Virus record (IMG/VR): IMGVR_UViG_3300030118_006426
Location: 1-21,779 of that record
Reading direction: 5' to 3' (one strand)
From: a virus
Length of the DNA stretch: 21,779 bases
Position numbers and translations under genes: made by a program. Below, in pieces: positions 7,086-10,347 of this stretch. Numbering within the stretch: the stretch's first letter is position 1; each line of letters starts with the position of its first letter. Below the pieces are notes generated by a model that worked only from the letters and a program-made list of their open reading frames with translations, searched no databases and was not told the DNA's origin.

Positions 7086-7248
7086 AGACTTAATAAAAAA
7101 TTATACTCCAGAATTAGAATTACTTGATGCTTTAGATTATCTTAAGGATCAACCTTGGCTCGCTTCGGAGATCCTAGAGCACTTGGCTTCTCGTTCCAAT
7201 ATTGAAAAAACCGTTTTAAAATCTTTCCCGAAGGATCCAGCTCAGTAA
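7075..7248 (+). CDS. Small helical protein overlapping the lysozyme gene antisense
   Basis: An ATG at 7075 with a consensus AGGAGG seven bases upstream opens a 57-codon frame: MQYEDLIKNYTPELELLDAL, continuing DYLKDQPWLASEILEHLASR and ending FPKDPAQ. It overlaps the end of the Nmad1-like gene by 11 bases, a typical coupled arrangement, and runs 107 bases antisense into the lysozyme-like gene. The helical, amphipathic sequence and strong ribosome site favour a real gene. The antisense overlap argues for caution. Function unknown. Confidence 0.5.
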   Translation: MQYEDLIKNYTPELELLDALDYLKDQPWLASEILEHLASRSNIEKTVLKSFPKDPAQ

Positions 7249-7858
7249 ATTTTTTTTCTAAGTACTCAATTGCTTTTACTTGATTAGAAGTACCATTGTA
7301 TGTCTCTGCTAGATTTAACAAACATACCTTTGTATGACATTTATGACGATAAAAAGTAGGTATCTCTTTATCTGCAGCAAAATACATATCAAGTTCAGCC
7401 CGTCTTCTTGCTACCATTAGCTCTCCCCCTGACATCCAATAAGTATTAATATATGGACTCCACTCTTTAATTATTTTTTGTTTAGAGCTATAACTATTTA
7501 TTAATTTTAAAAGATTTGAATTTTTAAAAGCATTAATACCAATACTATGAGCAAAACTCAACAAAGCTGCTTTTCTGTTGGAATTTAAATTTACATATAC
7601 ATAATCCTTTAATTTATTTGAAAAATATTTTAAGTCAATAAAAAACTGTTGGTCTATTTCTTCTTGTGTAGCTTTATCTTTTGCATTTAAGGTATGCCCA
7701 TTTATTTCCTCACTTCCATAACCTATCCTCCAACAATCCTCACCAAACTCTTTGTAAGCTGCATAATTACCAAGACCTAAAAAAGTCCTAGCTGGCGTAT
7801 ATGATTTTGTTAATTTGTAACCTTTTTCAGAAAAAAATGGAAATTTAAGGGACGACAA
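7142..7858 (-). CDS. GH24-like phage lysozyme/endolysin, atypical active site
   Basis: 238 residues from a TTG at 7858, overlapping the upstream gene by 14 bases. The GH24 (T4/lambdoid muramidase) core is recognisable: FLGLGNYAAYKEFGEDCWRI (26-45) followed by GYGS, KATQEEIDQQFFIDL (62-76), RKAALLSFAHSIGINAF (95-111), SNLLKLIN and VARRRAELDMYF (149-160). In classical enzymes the first block contains F-E-G and T-I-G-Y-G; here they read F-L-G and R-I-G-Y-G, so the catalytic Glu and Thr are absent at the expected places. The C-terminal 75 residues (including H172 C174 H175 C179) are an extra domain. It probably acts on peptidoglycan in lysis or entry, if active. Confidence 0.7.
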   Translation of the reverse strand: MSSLKFPFFSEKGYKLTKSYTPARTFLGLGNYAAYKEFGEDCWRIGYGSEEINGHTLNAKDKATQEEIDQQFFIDLKYFSNKLKDYVYVNLNSNRKAALLSFAHSIGINAFKNSNLLKLINSYSSKQKIIKEWSPYINTYWMSGGELMVARRRAELDMYFAADKEIPTFYRHKCHTKVCLLNLAETYNGTSNQVKAIEYLEKKFTELDPSGKILKRFFQYWNEKPSALGSPKRAKVDP

Positions 7859-8228
7859 CAGTTCCTTTATAGCTCACTTCAGAATAACCATCATATGCAA
7901 GTAATACAACATAATCTTTAGCAGCGTTAGTGACTGTAACACCTACAGCTCCTTTACCTTTTCCAGCTTTTTCAATATCGAAAAATTTTTGATATCCGGT
8001 TGGAGCATTACCAGTAGCAAAAGCATCTTTTTGAAATATCTGTACGCTACGAATACCTGATGATTTTAAAATATTCACGATAATATCTCCTGTACCACCT
8101 GGATTTACTTCGAAGCCTCTTACATCGTCACTTCTGTCACCAGTTGTAGATCCACCTACATAGGATATTTCAGAGCCACCATCAACGCTGAATGTATCAA
8201 GAGTGCCTGTTATTGTTCGTGTAGCCAT
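7845..8228 (-). CDS. Beta-rich hypothetical protein upstream of lysozyme
   Basis: 127 residues with many Gly, Val and Thr: MATRTITGTLDTFSVDGGSE, DVRGFEVNPGGTGDIIVNIL, IRSVQIFQKDA, then alternating strands to the VSYKGTVVVP end. The pattern suggests a small beta sandwich, perhaps PPC-like, similar in style to the protein at 3313-3987. No signal peptide or catalytic residues are apparent. It lies between the NblA-like gene (5 bases away) and the lysozyme gene (14-base overlap), so it belongs to the same leftward unit. A particle or lysis accessory role is inference. Confidence 0.6.
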   Translation of the reverse strand: MATRTITGTLDTFSVDGGSEISYVGGSTTGDRSDDVRGFEVNPGGTGDIIVNILKSSGIRSVQIFQKDAFATGNAPTGYQKFFDIEKAGKGKGAVGVTVTNAAKDYVVLLAYDGYSEVSYKGTVVVP

Positions 8229-8233
8229 GTTTT

Positions 8234-8446
8234 TTAAGAAATTTGACCTTCAGTTGATAGCTGAAATTGAATGTTTGCATCTATACCATGATCTTTCAAA
8301 ATGCCAAAAAACATTTGACGATCAATAGCTTTCTGATGTAAAAGCTCAATAAATGCTTCTTCTAATTCTACGCGGTCTAAAGTTTGGATTGCGATTGCAG
8401 CAGCATGAATTGCGAATTCCTGATCTACTGGGAGATTTACATCCAT
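8234..8446 (-). CDS. NblA-like protein (phycobilisome degradation adaptor family)
   Basis: 70 residues, two predicted helices. NblA proteins show a short acidic L-x-x-E/D-Q-x-F start, a helix with paired Leu/Gln/Arg, and an end like LLKHxWG. Here the corresponding pieces are LPVDQEFAIHAAA (5-17), LDRVELEEAFIELLHQKAID (23-42) and FFGILKDHGID (46-56), in register and with the usual length of about 60 residues. NblA docks phycobiliproteins to the Clp protease in cyanobacteria, and NblA genes are known in some cyanophages. A short C-terminal tail (ANIQFQLSTEGQIS) is extra. Assigned from motif spacing only, so activity is not assured. An AAAGG ribosome site lies about 11 bases upstream. Confidence 0.6.
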   Translation of the reverse strand: MDVNLPVDQEFAIHAAAIAIQTLDRVELEEAFIELLHQKAIDRQMFFGILKDHGIDANIQFQLSTEGQIS

Positions 8447-8485
8447 ATAAGTTAAAACCTTTATACATATATTACCAACAGTAAA

Positions 8486-8647
8486 TTAACGAGCAATACT
8501 CTGCATCGGTTGAGCTCTAGTATCTACTGTAAAGTCTGGAATATCAGGTACATCATCAAACAAACCAGTCCTCTTTAGATCTCTCGATTCTATAAACTCT
8601 TGTAATTTTCTCTTTGGGTCTATAGTTTGGTTCATGGATTCTAACAT
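8486..8647 (-). CDS. Small hypothetical protein (53 aa)
   Basis: Frame from the ATG at 8647: MLESMNQTIDPKRKLQEFIE, then SRDLKRTGLFDDVPDIPDF and ending AQPMQSIAR. It is polar with a predicted helix followed by an acidic, Pro-rich tail, in the style of other small phage proteins here. It overlaps by 92 bases, in another frame of the same strand, the membrane ORF at 8556-8723. No clear Shine-Dalgarno. Function unknown. Confidence 0.45.
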   Translation of the reverse strand: MLESMNQTIDPKRKLQEFIESRDLKRTGLFDDVPDIPDFTVDTRAQPMQSIAR

Positions 8648-8771: not shown

Positions 8772-9566
8772 ATGAATATAGACGAAATTTTAAAAGCTTT
8801 TATGGAGGCTTCTGTTAGTGGAGCCAGTAAAACACAAGTGATAAGAAGTTTTAAGGATATTTATAATCTTAATGATGAACAAGTAGATAAATTAATATTA
8901 TTGTCTAAATTTAAGAAAAAACCAAAAAAATTAAATTATAAAAAATTTTATAATAACAAAATAATTCATGAAGCTGAAAGAATATATTTCCCTTTTACGC
9001 AGATTTATAAGCTTGATAATTTTCTTTCTGATAATGAATGTAGTGAATTAATTTCAATGGTGTCAACGAATCTTAGACCTTCTACCGTTGCAGATCCTGA
9101 AGATACCTGTTTAGTAGATGATTACAGAACTAGTAAAACGTCAGACTTAAATTATTTTACAAATCCTTTTTATTTAAATATTGATAGAAAAATAGCTAAT
9201 TTATTGGATATGAATCCTTTTCTAGGTGAAACAATGCAGGCTCAAAAATATAACGTAGGTGAATACTATAAAGAACATTATGATTTCTTTTCACCTTTTA
9301 ATCGTGAATTTAAAACTTATTGTGAATGGATGGGGCAAAGAACTTGGACTACAATGATTTATCTAAATGATGTAGAAGAGGGAGGTGAGACATACTTTAA
9401 ACGATTAAATCTCAAAATAAAACCGAAAAAAGGCTTATTAATCGCATGGAATAACCTATATATAAATGGATTTCCGAATTACAAAACTATCCATGAAGCT
9501 TTACCTCCAATAAAAGGCACAAAATATATTATTACTAAATGGTGGAGAAGTTGGAGTCTTATCTAA
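8772..9566 (+). CDS. 2OG-Fe(II) oxygenase, prolyl-4-hydroxylase-like
   Basis: 264 residues. A helical N-terminal region (1-50) precedes a P4Hc-type catalytic domain. The iron ligands are H169 and D171 (EHYDFF) and H241 (TIHEALP). K251 in GTKYIITKW lies ten residues after H241, the spacing of the 2-oxoglutarate-binding Lys in prolyl 4-hydroxylases. The conserved strand MIYLNDVEEGGETYF (195-209) is also present. The enzyme should hydroxylate a protein or peptide side chain using O2 and 2-oxoglutarate in the cytoplasm; the substrate is unknown. Such enzymes are frequent cyanophage accessory genes. It is a single plus-strand gene between minus-strand neighbours, and its stop abuts the convergent stop at 9567. 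Confidence 0.88.
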   Translation: MNIDEILKAFMEASVSGASKTQVIRSFKDIYNLNDEQVDKLILLSKFKKKPKKLNYKKFYNNKIIHEAERIYFPFTQIYKLDNFLSDNECSELISMVSTNLRPSTVADPEDTCLVDDYRTSKTSDLNYFTNPFYLNIDRKIANLLDMNPFLGETMQAQKYNVGEYYKEHYDFFSPFNREFKTYCEWMGQRTWTTMIYLNDVEEGGETYFKRLNLKIKPKKGLLIAWNNLYINGFPNYKTIHEALPPIKGTKYIITKWWRSWSLI

Positions 9567-9854
9567 TTACCACTTAACTTTATGTGACCAGTATCTAGCA
9601 GAAAACTTATCAGGATTTGGATCTTGAGCATTATGTCTTGCATAATATGATTTTTTTCTAGCCTTATCTTTCGCAGATTTAGGATTCTTACCAGCACCTT
9701 TTACTCCCTGCTGACCAAATCTTATTATCTTTTCTTTGCCATCTTTACAAGCTTTTACAACATGAGACTTTGTTTTATGACTAGGAGTCTTCTTAGGTTT
9801 ATTACACTTTAAATGTTCTTTTGAAAGTTGTTTAGCTTTTGCTCTCTTTGACAT
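9567..9854 (-). CDS. Lys-rich DUF6321-like protein
   Basis: 95 residues, very basic. The core KEKIIRFGQQGVKGAGKNP (about 40-58), followed by SAKDKARKKSYYARH and a closing SARYWSHKVKW, matches the DUF6321 pattern I remember from cyanophages and other aquatic phages. Two Cys (17 and 36) are present. The charge suggests nucleic-acid binding or virion packaging, but no function is established. The start overlaps the Dps-like gene by 23 bases, so the two are co-expressed. Confidence 0.7.
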   Translation of the reverse strand: MSKRAKAKQLSKEHLKCNKPKKTPSHKTKSHVVKACKDGKEKIIRFGQQGVKGAGKNPKSAKDKARKKSYYARHNAQDPNPDKFSARYWSHKVKW

Positions 9855-10347
9855 TTTTTTCGTTAGAAATCGTATATGTCAGTGAAGATCTAAGATGCCA
9901 CTGATATTTCTTATGTTTACGAGCACGATCTACAGCTAATCCTTGAGTGAGTTCATCACCAAGCATACCACTATACTTTGCTAGTTCTTCAAAATAACCT
10001 GCAAGCATATCGTGAACTACACTTAATTCTAAAACAAGTTTTTCTTCGTCATAAGGGTCACTCATATCTATTTGATTTATTCGTGATGACATTAAATTAT
10101 CCACAGCTAATGGTGTCATTAAGTTTATTGATCTAATATGTTCAGCTATCTCGTCTACACCCTTATGCATTTCATTCTGAATTTCCTCTGTTAAAAGATG
10201 TATTTGATAGAATTTTGAACCATTTAGACCCCAATGAACAAGTCTAGTTTGAGCTAAAACAAAAATACTATCTCGTAATGATTGAACAATAATCTGATCT
10301 ACATACTCTTTGTCTTTTGGATTTACGTTGTGAATTGGAATGTTCAT
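9832..10347 (-). CDS. Dps-like ferritin-family protein
   Basis: 171 residues. All five ferroxidase-centre residues of the Dps family are present with the spacing of E. coli Dps (H51, H63, D67, D78, E82): H38 in LVHWGLNG, H50 in FYQIH, E54, D65 and E69 in VDEIAEHIR. The C-terminal part (GDELTQGLAVDRARKHKKYQW, split around 131-150) matches the last Dps helix. Family members oxidise Fe(II) with peroxide in a 12-subunit shell and often shield DNA. The basic C-terminal tail (RKHKK, NEKNVKESK) could bind DNA. The gene overlaps DUF6321 downstream and shares a base with the gene upstream. It is probably cytoplasmic, protecting DNA or storing iron during infection. Confidence 0.8.
   Translation of the reverse strand: MNIPIHNVNPKDKEYVDQIIVQSLRDSIFVLAQTRLVHWGLNGSKFYQIHLLTEEIQNEMHKGVDEIAEHIRSINLMTPLAVDNLMSSRINQIDMSDPYDEEKLVLELSVVHDMLAGYFEELAKYSGMLGDELTQGLAVDRARKHKKYQWHLRSSLTYTISNEKNVKESKS

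Follow-up and report, generated by a model that had tools for sequence, protein, structure and literature searches.

The window analysed here, a 21,779-nucleotide stretch of viral DNA, carries on its minus strand a small gene whose remote but genuine kinship to nblA is confirmed by sequence and profile searches. In cyanobacteria, nblA encodes a small protein that tags light-harvesting antennae for destruction and, according to PMC7966870, connects phycobilisome subunits to ClpC. The reading frame runs from an ATG at position 8446 down to 8234, exactly where the original prediction had placed an NblA-like phage gene, and translates into 70 residues, MDVNLPVDQEFAIHAAAIAIQTLDRVELEEAFIELLHQKAIDRQMFFGILKDHGIDANIQFQLSTEGQIS; an AAAGG motif is located 11 to 15 bases 5' of the ATG. 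The features of the locus are as follows.

7142..7858, minus strand: endolysin gene (Phage_lysozyme, PF00959, E = 5.5e-16); adjoins the nblA orthologue in phage S-EIV1 too
7845..8228, minus strand: 127-aa gene with no Pfam match; adjoins nblA throughout the marine clade, as judged by synteny
8234..8446, minus strand: nblA-like gene, 70 aa plus stop; an open reading frame with NblA as its best match in the PDB and NCBIfam
8237..8290, minus strand: C-terminal tail, residues 53-70; conserved and specific to the lineage, its end predicted to be disordered
8291..8443, minus strand: NblA core, residues 2-52; gap-free alignment to 3CS5, AlphaFold helices 7-21 and 25-52
8469..8496, minus strand: candidate extended -10 promoter; TTGCTC, 16 bases and TAATAT preceded by TGG, ending 22 bases before the ATG

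Among the sequence hallmarks that had pointed to NblA, the D-Q-E-F start (L-P-V-D-Q-E-F in full) and the helical central part were borne out, but LKDHG proved not to be the end of the protein, which continues for another 16 residues (IDANIQFQLSTEGQIS).

Since a PF04485 scan returned no match for the window copy or its contig, homology was tested by other routes. Searching 177,635 distinct PDB sequences, four of them NblA, phmmer placed NblA in the top two positions, with 3CS5 from S. elongatus at E = 9.6e-4 and 1OJH from Anabaena at E = 0.26. BLASTP aligned residues 2-51 with 3CS5 without a gap (30% identity and 60% positives over 50 aa). The local alignment score against this structure was 79, compared with 24.3 +/- 4.6 for shuffled sequences (n = 5000, z 11.8), none of which scored as high. 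The same shuffle test on pairs of solved NblAs gave z values of 11.8 (3CS5-1OJH) and 10.2 (1OJH-2Q8V), and by this measure the window copy appears to align to NblA about as well as the solved NblAs do among themselves. The NCBIfam NblA model NF045916 likewise matched the window copy (E = 1.3e-4), at 22 bits against a curated cut-off of 100, as well as 32 of the 40 lineage members.

Pooling members strengthened the signal. A profile of these 40 proteins, drawn from two clades, found 3CS5 at 7e-7 and 1OJH at 8.9e-6 in the PDB, the next best match being at 0.46, and hhalign gave a probability of 96% for the lineage against an NblA alignment. Two orthologues, L174 (26.6 bits) and L167 (26.3 bits), exceed the PF04485 cut-off of 25, so that the Pfam search originally suggested as a check failed for the window copy and succeeded only through its relatives. 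A better match to another small helical family, named at the outset as grounds for giving up the assignment, did not emerge, as no other family was consistently matched. Weak matches to an FF domain, DUF3231, a RelB-like protein and T4 gp19 were inconsistent across members and were discarded. A PHROGs search gave no informative match, tblastn with the window protein against 50,697 phage records gave a single chance match only, and a search of plasmids with S. elongatus NblA found nothing.

A first AlphaFold model, made with close relatives only, had a pLDDT of 61 and no useful fold match. With a wide alignment, the model of the single chain showed helices at residues 7-21 and 25-52 and a disordered end, the pLDDT being ~86-90 across residues 11-50. 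Structure prediction, which had also been proposed as a check, thereby yielded for the single chain the short first and long second helix of the NblA helix-turn-helix, in the same register as the sequence alignment. Foldseek found no PDB match for this better model, so fold comparison carries no weight for or against NblA. Together, the sequence and profile searches, the syntenic orthologues above the Pfam cut-off and the predicted helix-turn-helix support the idea of an NblA-like gene in a phage.

At the level of single residues, L51 and K53 of Anabaena NblA are reportedly important for phycobiliprotein binding, in work attributed to Bienert et al., 2006. They align with I49 and K51 of the window copy; K51 is invariant across the marine clade, with alanine taking its place in the S-EIV1 clade. 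Within the tail, G54, I55, D56, A57, I59 and Q68 are invariant in the marine clade, and the tail is partly common to the S-EIV1 clade.

As to the phage itself, gene content and order indicate that the window is an S-EIV1-like cyanophage. Out of 50,697 phage records, Synechococcus phage S-EIV1 alone matched the portal protein encoded by an 82-kb relative (52% identity across 99%), several window genes have S-EIV1 counterparts that follow the same order, and the relatives and S-EIV1 alike have a family-A polymerase encoded in a single frame. This portal match to a cultured cyanophage, together with psbA on 6 of 15 long related contigs, is why we regard the lineage as cyanophages. Distant DNA matches had initially led us to assume a T4-like myovirus, which the portal, the polymerase and the gene order ruled out; a search for the T4-like capsid family gave no match and was uninformative, the control being silent as well. 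Searches found no Terminase_6N, no integrase in either S-EIV1 or the longest contigs, and, on the 15 related contigs, neither a bilin reductase of the pebS/pcyA family nor cpeT. An S-EIV1-like prophage has been described from S. elongatus UTEX 3055 (PMC9239245).

S-EIV1 provides a cultured counterpart of the gene. Its protein AHV82245.1, 106 aa long and annotated as 'hypothetical', is encoded beside the lysozyme gene, and the window family profile retrieves it at E = 8e-5 among 1403 ORFs. Used alone as a query, AHV82245.1 matches only NblA in the PDB (1OJH, E = 0.016) and only NblA in Pfam (E = 0.014).

About 120 environmental contigs, as well as S-EIV1, carry the gene at this same locus. Scans with the window protein, its alignment and S. 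elongatus NblA recovered close homologues in 88 viral contigs, and a scan with the S-EIV1 protein added 31 contigs in which the gene is again found beside the endolysin. One further homologue contig, filed under a Bacteroidetes MAG, came from a genome scan; L098 (QQUU01000116.1, 11,452 bases), from such a MAG, has the gene order of the S-EIV1-like lineage and looks like a misbinned cyanophage. When loci were fetched through the endolysin instead, 23 of 24 carried nblA, the remaining one being a 403-base fragment, but this is not an independent sample since nearly all these contigs were known from the nblA scans.

Gene order around nblA hardly varies, the 127-aa gene and the endolysin gene being grouped with it as immediate neighbours; in the window, nblA ends 5 bases before the 127-aa gene, which in turn overlaps the endolysin gene. 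The region upstream of nblA holds a 53-aa gene (8486-8647), a 2OG-Fe(II) oxygenase gene (8772-9566) and a Dps-like gene (9832-10347), which are found in some relatives and undetected in others, forming a variable cassette beside the fixed nblA. In 88 of 90 loci, an intact nblA frame spans at least 85% of the gene, and contig ends truncate it in the remaining two. In the low-GC clade, its mean pN/pS is 0.144, below the values of the 127-aa gene (0.243) and the endolysin gene (0.273). Thus, nblA is under strong purifying selection, a gene that is maintained and not decaying.

Conservation extends to the sequence upstream. The pattern TTGNNN, 16-17 bases and TAnnAT preceded by TG-N occurs in all 63 distinct marine-clade upstream sequences, ending at a near-constant 22-23 bases before the nblA ATG, and the extended -10 pattern has just two occurrences in the whole window. 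A plain consensus promoter scan of the window did not list the element at 8469..8496, and we therefore regard it as a candidate promoter whose backing is its conservation.

The host of the window's low-GC clade is probably Prochlorococcus, as judged from the psbA genes of relatives and from GC content. The window itself has no psbA. The psbA proteins of four related contigs (G001-G004) fall with those of Prochlorococcus phages, in a clade with support of 99/97 that also holds S-SSM4; because phages swap psbA, this host assignment is an indirect one. In G004, a 73-kb contig (L091 / L123), psbA breaks into two frames near residue 269, which may reflect a frameshift, a misassembly or a genuine interruption of the gene. 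The GC content is 34% in the window and reaches 47% in related contigs. Contigs L078 and L079 (~47% GC), L098 (46%), L080, L082, L083 and L088 are clearly above the window in GC while largely sharing its gene order, suggesting that the hosts of related phages may differ widely in base composition. Prochlorococcus has neither phycobilisomes nor nblA (PMC7439483), so that, with such a host, the question becomes what substrate an adaptor for antenna degradation would have in a cell without phycobilisomes. Given the grouping of the marine psbA genes with Prochlorococcus phages, the proviso in the original prediction that a Prochlorococcus host without phycobilisomes would call for another target was apt.

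We consider it rather probable that the phage NblA serves as a substrate adaptor between host ClpC and pigment-binding antenna proteins. The helix-turn-helix product would dimerise like NblA, bind ClpC and act as the adaptor. Where the host is a Synechococcus with phycobilisomes, it would set off their breakdown, so that amino acids are released and excitation is reduced; for the low-GC clade, residual phycoerythrin or some other protein of the host would be the target. Other phage NblAs cause phycobilin loss when expressed (PMC9602691). Against such an adaptor, we count the PF04485 miss, the gap between 22 bits and the NCBIfam cut-off, the silence of Foldseek and a probable host devoid of phycobilisomes and nblA. 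A tentative extension, possible but no better than that, is an NblA-type Clp adaptor under strong selection in Prochlorococcus phages, its target being leftover phycoerythrin or a non-phycobiliprotein and the tail being part of the change.

Rather doubtful is a retargeted NblA which would keep its Clp-binding side and deliver cargo other than phycobiliproteins, the conserved tail helping to set the new specificity; such cargo might be a chlorophyll antenna protein of Prochlorococcus, a defence protein or a regulator of the host. It would accommodate the grouping of four psbA proteins with Prochlorococcus phages, the conserved extra tail and the strong purifying selection on the gene despite the lack of phycobilisomes and nblA in Prochlorococcus. 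However, the host was deduced from psbA, which phages exchange, and from GC only, and S-EIV1 itself infects a Synechococcus. In addition, some Prochlorococcus retain phycoerythrin genes, which would leave a phycobiliprotein as a possible target.

That the phage protein instead works as a decoy or inhibitor, occupying ClpC or pairing with host NblA so as to block proteolysis and protect antennae or phage proteins, we deem very unlikely. It would be in line with conservation of the core fold alone, and with a residue matching Anabaena K53 that differs between the marine and S-EIV1 clades; yet the phage NblAs assayed so far promote phycobilin loss and do not block it (PMC9602691), and Prochlorococcus offers no NblA for pairing. 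Barely credible, finally, is a small helical lysis-region or virion protein with a coincidental likeness to NblA, as the constant proximity to the endolysin, the missing PF04485 match of the window copy, the silent Foldseek search and the weak FF and DUF3231 matches of some members are outweighed by NblA being the best match of marine and S-EIV1-type queries independently, by two orthologues above the Pfam cut-off, by the lack of any other consistently matched family and by an order relative to the endolysin that varies between clades.

Taking the NblA-type adaptor as the preferred reading, how does the family relate to what is known? Phage NblA has been described from freshwater phages, cyanopodoviruses, some cyanomyoviruses (S-TIM5/S-SCSM1) and one uncultured marine lineage (PMC9602691), and a survey table lists S-EIV1 without nblA (PMC5332604). 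We rate the window family as a divergent new branch of the already known phage NblA, of which an earlier mention in the literature is possible. The uncultured marine lineage, which is a different phage group, was reportedly described by Nadel et al. in 2019. S-SCSM1, a T4-like phage infecting both Synechococcus and Prochlorococcus, is a reported nblA carrier (PMC9602691), which lowers the novelty of finding the gene in a Prochlorococcus phage. What stands out is that nblA is fixed across an entire lineage that has been little studied, occupying one locus in a cultured freshwater phage as in many marine contigs. Control over antenna proteolysis in the host thus looks like an old core strategy of this lineage and not a recent acquisition.

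Compared with cyanobacterial NblA (PF04485, NF045916; 3CS5, 1OJH, 2Q8V), the whole helical core of the window copy aligns without gaps, with the turn at the same place and a common L-x-x-x-x-F start. It differs in being phage-encoded, in its identity of ~30% or less, in scoring below the curated cut-offs, and in an extra 18-residue tail that has no counterpart in the solved NblAs. The freshwater phage NblAs (Ma-LMM01, MaMV-DC, PaV-LD), known here by description, are expressed during infection with phycobilin loss, and published trees are reported to place them far from the NblAs of marine phages (review PMC9602691). NblAs of the S-TIM5/S-SCSM1 type belong to another phage group, and the S-SCSM1 type has no detectable similarity to the window family. 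The published NblA of S-SCSM1, ORF237 (L097 8452-8616), was not clearly above shuffles against the solved NblAs and had no PF04485 match, its assignment resting on HHpred alone. Cyanopodovirus NblAs of the S-RIP2 and KBS-P-1A type, small phage proteins assigned to NblA and likewise from another phage group, align with the window copy at z 4.6. The KBS-P-1A protein AGH57737.1 (L075 2031-2210), annotated as 'hypothetical', is clearly NblA-like (PF04485 19.9 bits; z 11.9 to 3CS5). S-EIV1 and ~31 related contigs encode beside the lysozyme gene a syntenic orthologue that is 95-108 aa long, has an acidic end, is ~25-30% identical to the window copy and matches NblA independently.
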